From contig NC_014501.1 in assembly GCF_000147335.1 (NCBI RefSeq), positions 3,780,300 to 3,844,299 on the forward strand: DNA of 64,000 nt. Reading direction: 5' to 3'. The stretch is from Gloeothece verrucosa PCC 7822. GTDB lineage: Bacteria; Cyanobacteriota; Cyanobacteriia; Cyanobacteriales; Microcystaceae. The position numbers and the translations under genes were made by a program. The notes beneath the pieces were generated by a model. That model was not told the origin of the DNA. It was given only the letters and a program-made list of their open reading frames with translations, and searched no databases. Shown piece by piece: positions 337 through 8,297 of the stretch (position 1 is the first letter of the stretch; every line of letters starts with the position of its first letter).

Positions 337-648
337 ATGACATTATATAAAGAAAATTAATCTATTGAACTTATCGAAACTAGCTTTAACAAAATAAAAC
401 CTAGTGCGGGGGAATTCTTCTCAAGTTTTTACAAAAAACTCTTTGATGCTTATCCAGAAACTCAACATTTGTTTAGATTGGACTCCGGAAGTAGCTCAAG
501 CTTGGCTTAACATTTACACTAAGAAGTTATTAAAAGTAATAATCAAATTACCCCCGAAGAATGACAAGCTTTTGGAGAGCTTAATTTAAAACAGACTCAG
601 GAATTTATTGATATTCTTTGGCAAGAATTAGATAATTTGAAATTGTAA
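337..648 (+). pseudogene. Decayed globin gene
   Basis: Reading from an ATG at 337 gives a globin-like N-terminus (IKPSAGEFFSSFYKKLFDAY, then PETQHLF), interrupted early by a TAA after six codons. Just after the PETQHLF segment the frame shifts. In the next frame the sequence continues as LDWTPEVAQAWLNIYTKKL, which resembles the end of bacterial globins (WTPEVAQAW). The heme-binding middle, with the proximal His, is missing. A third frame carries TPEE-stop-QAFGELNLKQTQ and ends at TAA 646-648. This is best read as a globin gene inactivated by an early stop, a large internal deletion and frameshifts. Assignment rests on motif recognition only. Confidence 0.5.
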
Positions 649-702
649 CTTTAGAGGCTGTCCTAACAGACACCTGTTACCAACCCTCTAATATGGGTAA
701 AG

Positions 703-897
703 CTATTGCCCAAACTCCACTCTAGCCTGTTCCACAATTTCCACTGTAACCTCATCCATTCCTGCCGCTCTAGCTAACTCTTCTATCCGTTGCCGTGCTT
801 GGGTACGCACAAAAAAAGGGATCTGTTTCAGCTTGGCTTTAGCTTGGGGTGTCCAATGAGGAGTATCGGTAAAATCAACATCTGTCATAGTCTTCAT
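703..897 (-). CDS. Stand-alone PCP_red domain protein
   Basis: A 64-residue protein consisting almost entirely of the PCP_red domain: W15[16 protein letters not shown], then [19 protein letters not shown] and a final VEFGQ. This domain is best known as the C-terminal tail of ChlB, a subunit of light-independent protochlorophyllide oxidoreductase, but short free-standing copies also occur in cyanobacteria. No Fe-S or catalytic domain is attached, so function is unknown; a link to chlorophyll synthesis is only an inference from the domain. The second Met (position 4) is an alternative start. Confidence 0.7.
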
Positions 898-1027
898 GAA
901 GGGTTAGATTTCTATACTTATTGTGTCTTTCTTCATCTATAGTAACGGTTTTCGGTACGGATTGAGCTTAACTTTCTGGGTCTTGCGACATAATGAATTA
1001 ATAATAACACCAGTAGCGCCCAATAAA

Positions 1028-1052
1028 TAGAGACGTAAGGGCAACGTCTCTA
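1028..1052 (-). terminator. Probable terminator of the kai operon
   Basis: A perfect 9-bp inverted repeat (TAGAGACGT / ACGTCTCTA) with a 7-base loop lies 43 bases beyond the kaiC3 stop codon. On the minus strand it is followed by a T-rich stretch (TTTATT). This fits a Rho-independent terminator, although similar hairpins also occur as dispersed repeats in cyanobacterial genomes. Confidence 0.5.
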
Positions 1053-1094
1053 CAGAATAAAAATAATTTTGTCAAAAGTTAATTAATAACTGAT

Positions 1095-2654
1095 TTAACT
1101 TCCTTCTTCAAACAAGCCGCTAAGACGTTCAACTTCTGCCTGAGCAGTATACATCGGCGTTCCCGCTAAAATTCCGGTTACATTGCGGAAAGGTTTATTA
1201 ATGTGCATCCCTTTATTATCAATAGAAAACTCTCGAATATCCTTATCGTGCATGGAACCTCGCATTTTTAACACCGTAATTCCTCGCCGCATTTCCCCAT
1301 ACATTTCTACATAACGTAAGAGAATAATTGAATCGGTAATCGTGGAAATATGTCCCTCTGTAATCGAAGAACCCCCCAAAAGAGAGGGAGTCGTAGAAGT
1401 AAACAAGCCGCCGATTTCTTTTTGTTTAATAAACGAAGTCAAACCAATAATAAATTCTCGAAAACCTTTTAGATTCGACACTCTTTCTAAAGCCGATAAA
1501 CTATCTACTGCCACCCGGTTAGGCTTAAACTCCTCGATGATTTCTTTCATGGAAATAAGATGATTTTCTAACCCTGTAGTTTCCGGATAGCGGCACACCA
1601 CTTTCAGTTTACCTTCTTGTTCCATGCGATTAAAATCTACTCCCCAACCAATGGCATTTCTAAACAACTGTTCTCGACTTTCCTCAAAAGCAAAAATTAA
1701 ACATCGTTCCCCATTGGCGACACCACCCGCCATAAACTCAGTTACCATCAGGGTTTTCCCTGTACCCGTTGCACCAGAAACCAGGATAATTGAATCACGG
1801 AAAAACCCACCGCCACACATCCGATCTAATTCTTCAGAACCGGAAGTAATACGAATATCCGAGGATTTTTGCTCAAGTTCAATGGCCGAGAGCGGAATAA
1901 TTACCATTCCTCGCCTGCCAATAATCGTAAAAGGAAACTCTCCCTTTTGATGGTCAGTGCCGCGATATTTGAGGATTTCAATAGTACGGCGGCGTTTTTC
2001 ATCGGCTAAAACATTGCGAAGAATTACCACATTATCGGCCACAAATTCCTCAACCCCGTAGCGGCTAATATCACCATATTCCTGTGTTCTTTCTGCGGTC
2101 ATAATTGCAGTGACTTCTAATTCTCGCAGTGCCGAAGCCAACTTAAACAGATCGCTACGAACTTGGGCGCTATCCATTAGATGACTAAATATCGCTCCTA
2201 ATGAGTCCATCGAGACACGAGTGGCCTTATATTTGCGAATAGCAAACTCTATACGGGCAATTAACGCACCGAGGTCATATTCCCCGGTTACCATCGGTTT
2301 TTCTCCGGGTTGAGGCGAAGCATCCACAAACGCCCATTGACGATTTTCTTCCCACTGGCGGATATCCCAACCAAACCCGAGCATATTTTTACGCAATGCT
2401 TTAGGGGGTTCTTCAAAAGTCACAAAAACACCATTTTCTCCCCGTTTAATGCCTTCAGCGAGAAATTGACAAGCAAAAACCGTTTTGGCACTGCCTGCTG
2501 TACCAGCCACTAGAGTTGCTCGACCTTTGGGGAGTCCTCCTTCCGAGAGAAAGTCAAACCCTGGTATACCGGTTTCGAGTTTCTGAATATAATCCTGTTC
2601 GTTGTCTTGGCTCATCAATATATTTTGCTTGTAGTTGGTAATATTATGATCCAT
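1095..2654 (-). CDS. kaiC3: Circadian clock ATPase/kinase KaiC, KaiC3 type
   Basis: The 519-residue protein has two RecA-like halves. CI carries P-loop GTAGSAKT (51-58) and Glu-Glu 81-82; CII carries GATGTGKT (294-301) and an EES motif near 324. The Ser-Thr autophosphorylation pair in HISTITD (437-438) and the Thr of SITE upstream are kept. KaiC is a hexameric ATPase with autokinase and autophosphatase activity, driven by KaiA and KaiB. The N-terminal GIPGFDFLSEGG, the CI P-loop with Ala before Lys, and the C-terminal tail (GTPMYTAQAEVERLSGLF) differ from the canonical KaiC1 of S. elongatus and match what I recall of KaiC3. It is the last gene of the kaiA3-kaiB3-kaiC3 operon, 84 bases after kaiB3. 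The first ATG lacks a clear ribosome site; Met14 (position 2615) may be the real start. Confidence 0.9.
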   Translation of the reverse strand: MDHNITNYKQNILMSQDNEQDYIQKLETGIPGFDFLSEGGLPKGRATLVAGTAGSAKTVFACQFLAEGIKRGENGVFVTFEEPPKALRKNMLGFGWDIRQWEENRQWAFVDASPQPGEKPMVTGEYDLGALIARIEFAIRKYKATRVSMDSLGAIFSHLMDSAQVRSDLFKLASALRELEVTAIMTAERTQEYGDISRYGVEEFVADNVVILRNVLADEKRRRTIEILKYRGTDHQKGEFPFTIIGRRGMVIIPLSAIELEQKSSDIRITSGSEELDRMCGGGFFRDSIILVSGATGTGKTLMVTEFMAGGVANGERCLIFAFEESREQLFRNAIGWGVDFNRMEQEGKLKVVCRYPETTGLENHLISMKEIIEEFKPNRVAVDSLSALERVSNLKGFREFIIGLTSFIKQKEIGGLFTSTTPSLLGGSSITEGHISTITDSIILLRYVEMYGEMRRGITVLKMRGSMHDKDIREFSIDNKGMHINKPFRNVTGILAGTPMYTAQAEVERLSGLFEEGS

Positions 2655-2738
2655 TAGTTAATTTTGCCTGTTTGTTATCCCCTTGCCAATCATTAATTCA
2701 TGACGCAGGCTTATTTTTCAGGTTTTTTTTAGATAAAT

Positions 2739-3029
2739 CTAAGATTTGGCTTCTTCTCTGGCAATTAAATCTAAACCTAACAAGACTTTTTGGGTGTTAG
2801 ACATATCCCCGATGATCCTCTGGAGAGGAGGCGGCAGTTGTTTAATTAGGGTAGGAGTCACGAGAATTTTCTCTTGTTCAGCTAAATCAGGTTGTTCGAG
2901 AACATCGATAATTTGCACTGTGTACTGCTGATCGAGTTCTTCTCGGCAGATCCGCAGTAAATTGGCGATCGCTCGTTGAGATTTAATCGAGTTGCCGGTA
3001 ATATAAAGCTTAAGAATGTATTTATTCAT
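2739..3029 (-). CDS. kaiB3: Clock protein KaiB, KaiB3 type
   Basis: A 96-residue thioredoxin-like KaiB. Family signatures are present: YILKLYITGN at the N-terminus, ILVTPTLIKQLPPP around 55-68 and RIIGD followed by KVLLGLDL near the end. KaiB is a fold-switching protein that docks on the CI ring of phosphorylated KaiC. It lies 2 bases after kaiA3 and 84 bases before kaiC3, so the three are almost certainly one transcript. The B3 label follows from its partners, not from a computed phylogeny. Confidence 0.92.
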   Translation of the reverse strand: MNKYILKLYITGNSIKSQRAIANLLRICREELDQQYTVQIIDVLEQPDLAEQEKILVTPTLIKQLPPPLQRIIGDMSNTQKVLLGLDLIAREEAKS

Positions 3030-3031
3030 GA

Positions 3032-3904
3032 TTATTTTTGCTGATCTGACTTGGAGATGATATTGAGGGTACTCAATCCGATGTAATATTTACGGTAAAA
3101 CGATGCAAGATAACCCATCAGTTCTAACACCATTAAGCGCCCTTCAGAGACATAGGCTTGAGCTTTAGCCAAAGTAACATCCTGATTTTTTTGTTTCAAG
3201 GTGGTAGTGTGTAAATCGATGACATCTCTAGGACTAGCCTTCAAAAAGCCTAGCTTATCTGCCAGTATTCGCAAGCGCTCAGAAATGTTATGCTCGATTT
3301 TATAAGCCCGTTGTTCTAAAGCTAGAGAGAGTAACTCAGCGTAAGATTGAACCATTTCCTCAAAAATATCAGGCACACTTTCTCTAATCGGTTGTGAACC
3401 GAACATTCTTGCTGTAATACTGGTGTTACTGGCATGAATCAACTTTTCTAACACTTCAAATTCCCGTTCCTGCTGTTGAGCTTCCAATTGGGCTATATAT
3501 TGTTGCTTTTCAATCGCCAAACGAATCTGATAGATTAACAAATTGGTATCTAAATAGTCGGCTTTTAAGTACCCATCAGCACCCAACTGAAACACTTTGA
3601 TCGCAAGGTTTTCATCCTCATTGTCAAGTTGTACAATAATAGGAATCCTCGTAAACACTTCTCGAAGTTTAACTAAAGCGTTAACCCCTTGGCTATCGGG
3701 TAGGGTTAAATCCAGTAAAATCACATTAAAATTCTCGCTTGTCAGTTTTTCGAGTCCTTCCTTAAGAGAATCGACGAAAGTAAAGCCAAAGGATAACCCT
3801 TGTGCTAGGGAATTATGTTCAACATCACATAGCAATCTCTTGATTAAGTCTATTTTGGCTGGATCATCCTCAATAATTAAACCTTTACAGAGATTACTGG
3901 ACAT
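3032..3904 (-). CDS. kaiA3: Chimeric KaiA-like clock regulator: receiver domain plus KaiA-like helical domain (KaiA3)
   Basis: The 290-residue protein starts with a CheY-like receiver domain (about 7-135): acidic pair D13-D14, phosphoacceptor Asp65 in LLDLTLPD, Lys114 in GYLKAD. A long linker helix (about 130-165) leads to an all-helical C-terminal domain (about 180-285). The canonical KaiA pseudo-receiver lacks these acidic residues, so this is not ordinary KaiA. The architecture and operon place fit KaiA3, the chimeric regulator (Sll0485 type) reported to act on KaiC3 with KaiB3. Oddity: the Thr/Ser normally after the fourth strand is missing (PIIVQLDN), so signalling by phosphorylation may be altered. 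It is the first gene of the operon, and the kaiB3 start lies 2 bases downstream. Confidence 0.82.
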   Translation of the reverse strand: MSSNLCKGLIIEDDPAKIDLIKRLLCDVEHNSLAQGLSFGFTFVDSLKEGLEKLTSENFNVILLDLTLPDSQGVNALVKLREVFTRIPIIVQLDNEDENLAIKVFQLGADGYLKADYLDTNLLIYQIRLAIEKQQYIAQLEAQQQEREFEVLEKLIHASNTSITARMFGSQPIRESVPDIFEEMVQSYAELLSLALEQRAYKIEHNISERLRILADKLGFLKASPRDVIDLHTTTLKQKNQDVTLAKAQAYVSEGRLMVLELMGYLASFYRKYYIGLSTLNIISKSDQQK

Positions 3905-4134
3905 GATTAGTTAAGGGGCTTGGCGATTTTGGCGACTTCTTCAATATATTTTTACCTAAACAAAGATCCAAGTGTGGAAATCCCGTCAATTTCTTATTTT
4001 AATTTTTAATGCTAGTTATTAGTCATTAGTCCTTAGAATTTTTATACCGTTGTCTTGACGTTGCCTACAACCTCTGTAGCACCGAAGCGATTATTCTACC
4101 CTATAAAGTATTTTTGTACTAAATTGAACGAGCC

Positions 4135-4169
4135 TGACTAATGACTAATGACTAATGACTAATGACTAA
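4135..4169. repeat. Heptamer tandem repeat, five perfect TGACTAA units
   Basis: Five uninterrupted copies of TGACTAA occupy the last part of the gap between kaiA3 and the mlaE-like gene; a diverged inverse set (TTAGTCA-like) lies at about 4015-4035. The same family recurs at 13843, 30543, 37378, 46089, 50821, 60600 and 61322. The rest of the 3905-4177 gap shows nothing else I can name. Confidence 0.9.
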
Positions 4170-4177
4170 CCAATGTT

Positions 4178-4972
4178 TTATCCAGCTACGGCGCTACCGG
4201 TTCCTTGGAACATCAACCAAGATAAAAAGAAATTAGTCACAAAAATGGCTAGTAAAGCCGTTACCACTGCTGTAGTGGTAGATTGTCCTACCCCTTTGGC
4301 TCCTCCTGATGTGGTCAATCCCCAACTACACCCAATCACAGCAATTAAAGAACCAAAAACGGCAGATTTTAGAATACAACTGACTAAATCCCAAGTTTGT
4401 AAAAAGTTACGAGCCGAATTGAGGAAAACGGCCGGAGAAATATTGTATAAAGAATCGGCGATGGCTATCCCGCCAGCTATCCCCGTCAACAAAGCTAGAA
4501 CGGTTAAGATGGGTAGCATTAAACTACAGGCTAAGACGCGAGGGATCACTAAATAGTCTATAGGATCAGTTTTGAGCATATGGAGAGCATCAATTTGTTC
4601 GGTTACTCGCATGGTGCCAATTTCAGCCGCAAAAGCTGACCCTACCCGCCCGGCCACCACAACCGCAGTTAAAACGGGTGCTAGTTCTCGGGTGAGGGCT
4701 AAAGATAGAACACCACCCACATAACTTCCCGCCCCAAAGTAAATAAATTCTCGCGATACTTGGATAGTAAATACCATCCCGACGAAAGCGGCTGTTACCA
4801 GAGAAATCGTCAGAGACTCCGGACCGACGATGGCCATTTGATCTAGGGTGTTGCGCCGGTGAATCTTATATTTCAGTAAATGAAAAAAAACTTGTCCGCC
4901 CAGGAGAATTGCTGCCGACAAACGGGCAAACCAGGACGAAAACCCGCTTTTAGTAACTGTTTTGTTAGTCAT
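4178..4972 (-). CDS. MlaE/YrbE-family lipid ABC transporter permease
   Basis: A 264-residue integral membrane protein. It carries the MlaE signature region: LALTRELAPVLTAVVVAGR, then GSAFAAEIGTMRVTEQIDAL at about residues 90-130, with roughly five hydrophobic helices. Such permeases work with an ATPase and an MCE-domain protein to move lipids between the inner and outer membranes. Neither partner is adjacent; in cyanobacteria they are commonly encoded elsewhere. Its place beside pilG-pilH-pilI-pilJ matches the slr1041-slr1045 order I recall from Synechocystis. Confidence 0.88.
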   Translation of the reverse strand: MTNKTVTKSGFSSWFARLSAAILLGGQVFFHLLKYKIHRRNTLDQMAIVGPESLTISLVTAAFVGMVFTIQVSREFIYFGAGSYVGGVLSLALTRELAPVLTAVVVAGRVGSAFAAEIGTMRVTEQIDALHMLKTDPIDYLVIPRVLACSLMLPILTVLALLTGIAGGIAIADSLYNISPAVFLNSARNFLQTWDLVSCILKSAVFGSLIAVIGCSWGLTTSGGAKGVGQSTTTAVVTALLAIFVTNFFLSWLMFQGTGSAVAG

Positions 4973-5423
4973 TCGTTTTCTGTCATTGGCCTTTTATGCT
5001 TTAAGTTTAATCAAATTTTCGGGTTTTTTCTTCCATGCCGCTTGATTATCTTCGCCACACAAAGACCGACTCAAAGCGTTTTCTGTTCCCTGCTTGCACC
5101 TCGCAGCGCCGAAGTGTAGGTTAACGAGTTATTATCAGGGTCAGTAAAGGTTAAACTTAAATGGGATTTAGCTTGAGCTAATTTTTTTGAGACTTTTTTG
5201 TCGCGCGTCCCGTTAAACTAAATAATTTTTGACCAAGAGACGGCAAACTGCTGCTTCGGTTATTTATAAATATTAATAAAATTGACAATAATCAAATAGC
5301 CAAAAGTTCTCCTCGCTTCTTACCCTGTATAACACAGTAATTCTTAGCCGGAGAGCTTATCATCTAAAATAGGCATAAAACAACTAATCACCCATAAACT
5401 TTTTCAGTTCTAGTTTTACCCAA
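4973..5423. other. Intergenic stretch between the mlaE-like gene and pilJ, no gene seen
   Basis: 451 bases without a supportable gene or RNA. An open frame on the plus strand here overlaps the mlaE 5' end in antisense and has no recognisable protein. This stretch should hold the mlaE promoter and the pilJ transcript end, but I see no clear hairpin. Confidence 0.5.
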
Positions 5424-8297
5424 TTATTTGTAATCATTTTTATCCACCTTAAAACGCTCTACAGATTCCAGCAAATCGCGGGAAATTTTCACCAAAGTTT
5501 GTAGAGAACCCGCTACCCGTTGTGACTCTTGAGAGGTTTCTTGAGCCGTTAACTCTACTGACTGCATAACCTGAGCCACTTCGCGGGAATTTTCCCGTTG
5601 TTTAACCGTATCACCCGTAATAGAACGTACCAAAGAATCAATCCGATTAGATACCTGAATAATATCCTCAAGAGAACGCTTTGCCTGTTCTGAGCGCTCA
5701 GTTACATCGATAACCTGTTGAATTCCTTCTTCCATCGCCGTCATAACTGAACCCGTTTCACTTTGAATTTGTAAAACGATTTGTTCAATTTCTTTTAATG
5801 ACTTAGCAGAACGATCCGCCAATTGTCGTACCTCATCCGCCACAATGGCAAATCCTCGCCCCGCTTCTCCCGCCCTAGCCGCTTGAATCGAAGCATTGAG
5901 AGCCAATAAATTAGTCCGAGAGGCAATTTGAGAAACCACTGCCACAATCTTATTAATTTCTTGAGAAGCTTCTGCTAAACGTTTTACCTTTCTTGCGGTT
6001 TCGGATACTGTTTCTCGAATTTGCAAAATACCGGCTACCGTTCGTTCTACCGATTCACCGCCTTTAAGCGCCGTTACCGAGGAAGTACGAGCCACTTCTT
6101 CAGCTTCGCGAGCATTTTCAGCGACCCGTTGAATCGAATCCGTCATCATTTGCACAGAATTGAGCGTCACCGCCAACTCTTCAGCCATCCGCAGAGCATC
6201 GCTAGACTGATTCCGCGCAAATAACTCACTATCGGTAGAGCCTTTGTTCACCTGTTCAGCCGCTTTTTTAACTTGTCGGACGATTTCTCTAAGATTTTGA
6301 ATCGTCAGATTAAACGCATCTGCCACAGCACCGAGAACATCGGCGGTAACTTCAGCTTCTACGGTTAAATCTCCTCGGGCTGCACCTTCAACATCATCCA
6401 GGAGGCGAATCACTTGACGTTGTAAATCTTCTTTTTGCTGTTCCGTTTCGGCGGCGCGTCTTTGAGCCTCGCTGGTGGTAGTTAAAATCGCCTGAGCCAT
6501 TTGATTAAATCTAGCCGATAGTTGTCCGAGTTCATCTTCTGAATAAACAGTCGCTTTAACGTTAAAATCTCCAGCATAGATAGCATCAAATTGAGTCTGT
6601 AAATCATCTACCGTTTGCTTAATTTGATTGGTACTGAGGCGGGCAAAAAATAAGGTCGCCCCAAAAGTTGCGCCACCAGTCAATAGCATCATCAACAGCA
6701 TAGAGGGACTAAAAGGAGAAATAGCGGCTGTTTGTTGAGCTTGTAAAGCAGTAGACGAAGACGAATTTTTCTTAGGCGTTGTTTTCTTATCTGTTTTCGG
6801 GTCAGATTTCTTCGGATTAGAAGACACTGATTCAGTTTTGTTAGCCGGAGAATCGGCCTTTTTAGAGGGTTGTTTCGGGCTAAACATCCAAATAGCACTA
6901 CTGATTAAAAAAATCGTTGCCACTGATGTTAACCCGGCGATGCCGGCAGTAATCCACTGTTTTCTTTTTAAAGGAAGATTTTTAAGCGCTGAAAACTTGC
7001 CTTGTTCTATTTCAACAGTGGGTTTGATAAATCGAGTAGATGCACCCGTTAAATTAGCACTGGAATTTTCTCCTACATCAGTCCAATTGATCTTACTAAT
7101 AGACGACGCTTCCATAGCGGCAGCACTAATGCCGGAGCCGGTTTCTAGACCACTGTCTAAACCATCCGTATGACGTTCAAAAAGTCCCGAATCTGGTAAA
7201 GACTGAGCCACATCCGTAATATCAAATTGAGAAAGTCCGTCTAAATCGTCGTCATTAAAGACCTCCAAATCATTGAGAAATCCATCACTATTGGCAGGTT
7301 GTTGAGTATGAGAAGACAGAGGTTTTCGTTGCTGGGGTTCTTTTCTAAAAGCCTCCTCATTCCAGCTATCTGAATGATCAGCCGCTAAGTTTTCGGAAAA
7401 CTTGCCATTAGAAGGGTTTTTTCCCAAAAATTTTGTGGCATTCGACTTTAAGGCATTACTTGGCAAATCTGAAGAAACCACCAAAGTTGATTCGCCGGTA
7501 TCGGAAAACTGATCAAAATTGGACCTATAGCCGTTAGAGTTGAATCCGTTGTTATCTTCTTCGATGAAGGAGAGATGTCTTTGCTCATCTTCATCAGCAT
7601 TATTGTGCCAGTAAAAGTTTGTTTGATCGTCGTCTGCTCCGGGTTGATCCAAAGAGTTAACGTAGCGTTCTAGTTCAGGATGGTGAGAGGGTTCTGAGGG
7701 GAGTCCGAAAGTTTCCGCTAAATCTTCGAACTGAGATAGGTCAGGATTAAAAGAGGTTTCAGCATCTTCAGCAAAAGGATTAGCAAATTGATGTCTAGAA
7801 AACTCCTTGCCGATCGTCGGCTCTCCCATATCGTCGTCATCAGGATTCCAGTGGACCGTAGGTTGGTTACCCCAGTCCATCTCCTCCAAATCTGGCATAT
7901 CTGGATGTTGAGACCAATGGGAAAAATCGGGTTGCTCAAAAGACTCATCAGTATTTAAGTTGGCCTGACTAACGGTAAATCCTTCAGTTTCATCGATAGT
8001 AAAGTCCATTTCGTCAAAATCGGACTCGACGAGTTGAATCTGTTCTAAACCTCTTTCGGCATAATCGAGCAAATCTGGCTGTTGAGTAATTTTAAGAACC
8101 TTCTCATATTCTTGTTGAGCTATTTGATATTGCTGCATACTTAGGAAAATATGCCCTCGTAACAGTAAAGTATGAGGGTCATCAGGATACTCTTGAGCCA
8201 ATTGGTCAATGAGCGAAACCGCTTCGTCTAAATCCCCTCGACAATAAGCTGCATTCGCTTTTCCATACTGTTTAACATAATCTATTCCTGAAGTCAT
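5424..8297 (-). CDS. pilJ: Methyl-accepting chemotaxis protein PilJ (type IV pilus taxis) with N-terminal TPR-like region
   Basis: A 957-residue protein. Residues 12-70 look like TPR helices ([30 protein letters not shown]). A long acidic, low-complexity cytoplasmic stretch follows (about 90-440), then a membrane helix (about 448-471), a Ser/Lys-rich segment, a second membrane helix (about 529-552), HAMP-type regions, and a methyl-accepting signalling domain with the conserved hairpin [15 protein letters not shown] near 819. It senses an unknown cue and signals through CheW-like PilI to a kinase. There is no GAF or phytochrome-like domain, so it is not a PixJ photoreceptor. It is the last gene of the pilGHIJ set, 82 bases after pilI. 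Confidence 0.88.

Follow-up and report, generated by a model that had tools for sequence, protein, structure and literature searches.

What kind of clock does the three-gene kai cluster of Gloeothece verrucosa PCC 7822 encode, and by what route would its first gene product, KaiA3, take in a signal? The cluster lies near one end of the 64,000-nucleotide stretch of contig NC_014501.1 that we analysed (here called the window) and is compact, with all three genes on the minus strand in the order kaiA3 (3032..3904; 290 aa, stop TAA), kaiB3 (2739..3029; 96 aa, stop TAG) and kaiC3 (1095..2654; an open frame of 519 aa). kaiA3 stands directly upstream of kaiB3, only 2 bases away, and 84 bases separate kaiB3 from the open frame of kaiC3. 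Pfam searches returned a receiver for KaiA3 (E 4e-13), KaiB for the second product (E 4e-30) and KaiC/ATPase for the third (E 9e-122). The features on which the initial annotation had based its reading of the cluster, namely two P-loops and a Ser-Thr pair in KaiC and a KaiB 2 bases behind kaiA3, are all present. Scans of positions 600-4300 gave 8 promoter-like sites, with 8.7 expected, and 3 terminator-like sites, with 3.0 expected; an Rfam search of the same interval returned no match. The cluster adds a further member to a gene set already known as the second clock of cyanobacteria.

KaiC3 carries one P-loop in each lobe, GTAGSAKT in CI (residues 51-58; 2481..2504, minus strand) and GATGTGKT in CII (residues 294-301; 1752..1775, minus strand). 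CII also holds the adjacent phosphorylation pair Ser437-Thr438 (1341..1346, minus strand), and paired glutamates occur once per lobe (TFEEPP and FAFEES). The start of the protein is probably Met14 of this frame (base 2615), for a product of 506 aa; a Met lies close to codon 14 in KaiC3 relatives, and in 11 of 16 the printed frame begins there. Counted from Met14, the Ser-Thr pair falls at 424/425, close to Ser423 and Thr424, the phosphosites of Synechocystis KaiC3 given by Koebler et al. (2024; PMC11372060), and the kaiB3-kaiC3 gap becomes 123 bases.

The genome (7,841,948 bases in 7 contigs, with a chromosome of 6,091,620 bases) encodes four KaiC-like proteins of full length; one further match is weak and partial. 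This is in keeping with the report of Schmelling et al. (2017), whose available passages list three KaiB/KaiC sets for Cyanothece PCC 7822. The other three full-length copies are 55%, 37% and 30% identical to the window KaiC. The first has canonical kaiA and kaiB beside it, so that the search for kaiABC1 proposed in the initial annotation did locate a canonical set elsewhere in the genome; the only match to the KaiA model in the genome lies beside this kaiC1. The second belongs to a KaiB2-KaiC2-type set, which has KaiB and KaiC homologues in common with the window but differs in having two kaiB genes and, judged by eye, a putative histidine kinase beside kaiC2. An identity of 55% to the KaiC1 of the genome might be taken to mean that the window KaiC is a second KaiC1 and part of the canonical clock. 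We rejected this duplicate as virtually untenable, because identity to KaiC3-type cyanobacterial copies is far higher, at 83-91%, and because KaiC1 rows separate in a tree of 57 rows. In that tree, which was made by a quick method and carries long-branch warnings for far rows, a branch with SH-aLRT 99 separates the 10 KaiC1 rows from the rest. The window KaiC lies inside a 44-row set of KaiC3-type rows (SH-aLRT 99), nearest to cyanobacterial rows. The KaiC3 label rests on gene neighbourhood and on rows of the genus Synechocystis rather than on a named PCC 6803 KaiC3 reference; the 45 rows assigned to the KaiC3 set comprise 39 from kaiA3-type loci, 5 unlinked copies and the window protein, and one row, the second KaiC of its locus (L097_3014), falls outside the 44-row branch. 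The placement outside the KaiC1 clade that had been expected for this protein thus held. A KaiC3-like copy (83-90% identical), adjacent to kaiA3 or not, was present in 16 of 16 genomes with an intact kaiA3 (16 of the 21 others, with 5 Microcystis-type genomes left out) and in 0 of 5 without one; these 5 were chosen from 363 and comprise 1 with a remnant, 1 with the domain in another protein and 3 with no match.

The type of KaiB was checked in the same manner. In a tree of 98 rows, which takes in one KaiB-like domain of this genome (L051), one branch brings the 71 kaiA3-linked rows together, the window KaiB among them; its support of 85 is modest, and the tree has few columns and long-branch warnings.

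The name KaiA3 comes from Koebler et al. (PMC11372060), who, in the available text of that paper, describe how the Synechocystis protein stimulates KaiC3, how KaiB3 counteracts it and how a damped rhythm arises in vitro. The system of Synechocystis sp. PCC 6803 shares with the window the same three proteins, the kaiA3-kaiB3 order, the domain plan and the Ser-Thr pair. However, kaiC3 adjoins here and lies elsewhere there, which the initial annotation had noted and which the same paper confirms. According to these authors, kaiC3 usually follows kaiA3B3, Synechocystis and Microcystis NIES-843 being the two exceptions; the compact operon of PCC 7822 is therefore the ordinary arrangement. The proposal that the window holds a complete non-standard clock in one transcript stands insofar as the three genes are together, but the arrangement is less special than it had seemed, being the usual order in that paper and in the wider set that we assembled, where kaiB and kaiC follow the KaiA3-type gene in 54 of 77 loci, spread over nine named phyla plus a record without assignment (some contigs in this set break off early, and metagenome bins make up many of the records). 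Within the host family, 17 of 33 relatives have kaiC3 next to kaiA3, judged within 1.5-kb flanks; of the 16 without an adjoining kaiC3, 4 are Synechocystis-type and 11 Microcystis-type, and 1 comes from another genus.

The case for calling the first gene kaiA3 turns on its C-terminal domain (residues 171-288; 3041..3394, minus strand), which follows the receiver-like N-terminal domain and a linker helix. A model of the full-length protein (pLDDT 88.5, pTM 0.56) matched mostly receivers, with full-length KaiA at ranks 12 and 26, and the C-terminal domain was therefore modelled alone. The resulting model (pLDDT 92.1) has four main helices. In a Foldseek search with this model, KaiA chains took 9 of the top 12 rows (best E 0.046; TM 0.60, normalised to the query). 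A VIA comparison placed them in 7 of its 8 highest rows, at Z 9.9-10.9, a range in which a stressosome domain ties with them (Z 10.6) and in which caution applies, as Z below 13 can be common among helical bundles. With that caution, the modelled domain is a KaiA-like fold, as the initial annotation had supposed of this helical region, and the same KaiA-type fold was reached for Synechocystis KaiA3 by Koebler et al. (PMC11372060).

Likeness to canonical KaiA at the level of sequence is weak. PF07688 (KaiA) was not listed by Pfam for the window KaiA3 at E up to 1 and was reached by 1 of 77 relatives (E 8e-4). Profile matches to KaiA in the PDB had E 0.04-0.06; a larger profile placed KaiA at E 0.15-3.8 and ranked an unrelated chain, SHERP, first. 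An hhalign comparison of the C-terminal domain with KaiA gave a probability of 44.7 (E 2e-4). Given these weak PDB and hhalign scores, naming from the sequence profile alone was dropped, and the name is carried instead by the modelled fold and the published assays. A search of viral contigs found no relative of the domain. The receiver is the sole Pfam domain of the first gene, which would suit an ordinary NarL-type response regulator that merely adjoins kaiB-kaiC. However, Pfam found no DNA-binding domain, and, of 77 loci, 66 link the C-terminal domain to kaiB and 54 to both kaiB and kaiC. Together with the KaiA-type modelled fold and the KaiA3-KaiC3 assays of the Synechocystis orthologue (PMC11372060), this linkage makes a plain NarL regulator very improbable, and we rejected it.

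Clusters of kaiB and kaiC led by a KaiA3-type domain occur in nine named phyla, and the N-termini that precede this domain are receiver, PAS, protoglobin or solute-binding domains. Among 77 proteins (the window protein and those of 76 of the 77 loci), 65 match a Pfam receiver and 13 match PAS_9; a protoglobin N-terminus occurs in L109 (Methylobacter) and L126, and a solute-binding domain in L104. The open-access literature that we searched yielded no paper on KaiA with protoglobin, and, where KaiA was combined with globin, KaiB and KaiC, a single modelling paper from 2006, known by its listing. Dvornyk and Mei (2021; PMC8113500) described variable N-terminal domains of KaiA (OmpR, REC, AtoC and PHA02030), and PAS does not appear in the main text of their paper as available.

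We now turn to the N-terminal domain of KaiA3 (residues 1-130; 3515..3904, minus strand), which the initial annotation had taken for an intact receiver. Residues 12, 13, 65, 93 and 115 are E, D, D, L and A, where D/E, D, D, T/S and K are expected. The acidic pair E12 and D13 and the potential phospho-acceptor D65 (codon 3710..3712, minus strand) are kept. In the alignment, Leu93 (3626..3628, minus strand) occupies the switch Thr/Ser position and Ala115 (3560..3562, minus strand) that of the conserved active-site Lys, so that two hallmarks of a phospho-competent receiver are absent and the description as intact does not survive. A review of pseudo-receivers (PMC12632262) defines, in its available passages, a pseudo-receiver as a domain missing any one of five active-site residues; the window KaiA3, which lacks two of the five, fits this definition. 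Other receivers of the same genome retain both Thr/Ser and Lys in 7 of 7 aligned, these being drawn from 22 other receiver matches. The canonical KaiABC1 system (that of Synechococcus elongatus and the genome's own copy) follows the same three-gene logic and has the KaiA-type C-terminal fold, but the pseudo-receiver at the N-terminus of canonical KaiA lacks the phospho-acceptor Asp (PMC11372060), whereas the window KaiA3 keeps Asp65.

The residue changes extend well beyond this one protein. A census of 50 genomes of the host family found a match in 36 and allowed 34 of 35 intact KaiA3 proteins to be read (G421 being without a locus). In the window protein and its 33 relatives, Lys is kept in 0 of 34, Asp65 in 17 and Thr/Ser in 24; 11 of the 34 rows are Microcystis-type near copies, and these near-identical rows make up 11 of the 17 from which Asp65 is missing. 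kaiB3 adjoins kaiA3 in 33 of 33 relatives. The Lys loss covers rows of the genus Synechocystis too: the KaiA3 of S. salina (L070, at 299 aa as long as Sll0485 is stated to be), through which the comparison was made rather than through a named PCC 6803 sequence, is without the receiver Lys, like the window protein, and differs from it in having Ser in place of the switch Thr where the window has Leu. A 2026 review (PMC13421787), as far as its available text goes, calls the PCC 6803 KaiA3 receiver genuine. The word "lysine" is absent from the main text of Koebler et al. (PMC11372060) as available, where the relevant passages discuss Asp, and our searches of one open-access library, with queries not specific to Lys, found no report of a Lys loss in the KaiA3 receiver.

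The history of these changes was followed on a tree of 56 KaiA3 rows from which the five active-site columns had been excluded. Lys is kept in 31 of these rows, Asp in 45 and Thr/Ser in 42, and the fewest changes on the tree are 4 for Lys, 8 for Asp and 6 for Thr/Ser. The window protein falls in a clade of 22 rows (SH-aLRT 98) that also holds Synechocystis salina, Microcystis and Crocosphaera rows, all 22 being without Lys. Outside the clade all five residues are often kept, in cyanobacteria, Chloroflexota, Nitrospirota, Pseudomonadota and others, although one or more are missing in the cyanobacterial rows L074, L080-L082, L084, L093 and L098. The kaiA3B3C3 clusters of other cyanobacteria, Chloroflexota and other bacteria have the same gene order as the window, but many of those outside its clade keep the five residues, which the window does not. 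The input to the tree was 78 rows (the window, 68 of the 77 loci and 9 further proteins), 9 loci judged receiver-less having been excluded beforehand; removal of 5 near-identical Microcystis rows and of 17 rows in which the receiver was of another kind, aligned poorly or was absent left 56. Among these 17, L094, L106, L112 and L125 read all five residues, L087 and L092 are degenerate, and the Chloroflexus rows appear to have the Lys column shifted by one in the alignment. L088 and L090 count as eroded because their rows are truncated, with the N-terminus missing. The tree was made by a quick method, with SH-aLRT support only and a midpoint root; on this footing Lys was probably lost rather than gained. 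The most economical reading is a single Lys loss before the 22-row clade, followed by repeated loss of Asp and Thr. Eight pairs of clade relatives, the window protein not among them, gave receiver dN/dS values of 0.04-0.23 (with dS up to 1.7 in some), which argues for purifying selection in these relatives and for a domain that is maintained rather than decaying. The KaiA3 receiver is probably, then, a maintained pseudo-receiver whose input does not come through a standard phosphorelay.

A different view is that KaiA3 is a working phospho-receiver, in which a histidine kinase phosphorylates Asp65 and so tunes the oscillator. This was proposed for KaiA3 by Koebler et al. (PMC11372060) and repeated in the 2026 review (PMC13421787), in the passages available from each, and it is in line with the retention of E12, D13 and Asp65. 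Changes at DD, T or K, moreover, need not abolish phosphorylation (PMC12632262, available passages), and with the acidic pair and Asp65 kept, a weak phospho-input to KaiA3 is possible. Against a fully working phospho-receiver stand Leu93 and Ala115 themselves, as well as a structure of CheY with a Thr-to-Ile change, known to us by its title, which speaks of "uncoupled phosphorylation and activation". Furthermore, Lys is missing from all 34 host-family proteins and Asp65 from half of them, yet kaiB3 adjoins in every relative. The role of Lys109 in CheY is a further point on this side. On balance we consider this phosphorelay view unlikely.

We therefore prefer the pseudo-receiver reading: the cluster very probably encodes a complete KaiA3-KaiB3-KaiC3 second oscillator, with a maintained pseudo-receiver at the N-terminus of KaiA3 and an input that is most likely not a phosphorelay. 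As the best explanation, it draws directly on gene content and order, family placement, the modelled fold, the lost residues and purifying selection in relatives, and it extends by inference to oscillation, co-transcription and the nature of the input. The three genes would be transcribed together. By homology with Synechocystis, KaiA3 would act through its C-terminal domain to promote autophosphorylation of KaiC3 on the Ser-Thr pair, and KaiB3 would oppose this phosphorylation, perhaps also drawing KaiA3 into a complex. The outcome may be a damped, roughly daily phosphorylation cycle running beside the canonical KaiABC1 clock. The N-terminal domain retains the receiver fold together with the acidic pair and Asp65, whereas the switch Thr and active-site Lys are gone; as these two residues are lost, input to KaiA3 would most likely be a contact or a ligand that acts independently of phosphorylation, not a standard His-Asp phosphorelay.

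The operon itself is one more compact example of a published system, and the useful part of the present work is the result on the receiver. As the catalytic Lys is missing from all 34 KaiA3 receivers read in the host family, those of the genus Synechocystis included, the search for a cognate histidine kinase that the literature proposes may target the wrong mechanism. Other cyanobacteria and other phyla contain relatives with the five residues complete, for example L062 of Gomphosphaeria and L078 of Prochloron, and these offer matched pairs in which the change from receiver to pseudo-receiver could be followed in a clock protein. One broader possibility, to which we give roughly even chances, is that the KaiA-type C-terminal domain serves KaiB-KaiC timers in many phyla as a general adaptor for input, fitted with interchangeable sensors (receiver, PAS, heme-type protoglobin or solute-binding), and that in the lineage of the window the receiver dropped its His-Asp chemistry and came to be read in another way, a second and separate path to a KaiA-like pseudo-receiver. 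If this is true, the receiver of the window lineage would be a model for the origin of the pseudo-receiver of canonical KaiA.

Between the kaiA3 gene of the window and the permease-like gene upstream of it, a 7-base unit (TAGTCAT/TGACTAA) is repeated in two short arrays, at positions 4013 to 4036 and 4135 to 4169. Elsewhere in the genome of Gloeothece verrucosa PCC 7822, L046 and L010/L050 encode additional putative Kai homologues: one (30% identical) brings the number of KaiC-like proteins to four, and the other is a small KaiB-like protein (39%) encoded separately.

Remnants of kaiA3 and of canonical kaiA were found within the window's own family. At L043, in a 3.0-Mb genome (G183), a kaiA3 remnant carries five in-frame stops, and a KaiC search of this genome found a KaiC1-type protein and no KaiC3-type protein. 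A search for kaiA3 in three genomes sharing its genus code (G147, G268, and G420) returned no match. A canonical kaiA remnant with four in-frame stops is present in a 1.4-Mb genome of the same family (G390, contig C1, positions 864190 to 864393). In genome G187 (L033), the kaiB3 match downstream of an intact kaiA3 is split into two pieces with ca. 130 bases between them, an arrangement that possibly reflects disruption of the gene.

The KaiA3-type C-terminal domain also occurs in other protein contexts. Among L114 to L119, it is found in Chloroflexus-type proteins with a receiver of a different kind and, at L118, in a protein from Nitrospirae for which a Pfam search returned no domain; neither kaiB nor kaiC was seen in the stretches examined. 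A Melainabacteria protein (L121, positions 3381 to 5453) has several PAS domains and ends in the KaiA3-type domain, again with neither kaiB nor kaiC within the stretch examined around it. A protein resembling it, whose PAS part was assigned by eye, is encoded in G240 (L042, positions 1447 to 3201, minus strand), convergently with a separate receiver gene at 1041 to 1496; this genome has no KaiC at an E value of 1e-60.

In a record titled Desulfonema limicola, a 948-residue protein (L104, positions 482 to 3325) combines the KaiA3-type domain with PAS domains and two stretches of solute-binding type; kaiB and kaiC lie downstream, the latter incomplete at the contig end. Finally, in two methanotroph records, Methylobacter (L109, positions 4404 to 5453) and Methylovulum (L126, positions 4398 to 5453), the first gene of a kaiB-kaiC cluster encodes a protoglobin (E values of 2e-33 and 4e-33, respectively) fused to the KaiA3-type domain. 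This arrangement suggests an oxygen- or gas-sensing input to a Kai timer.
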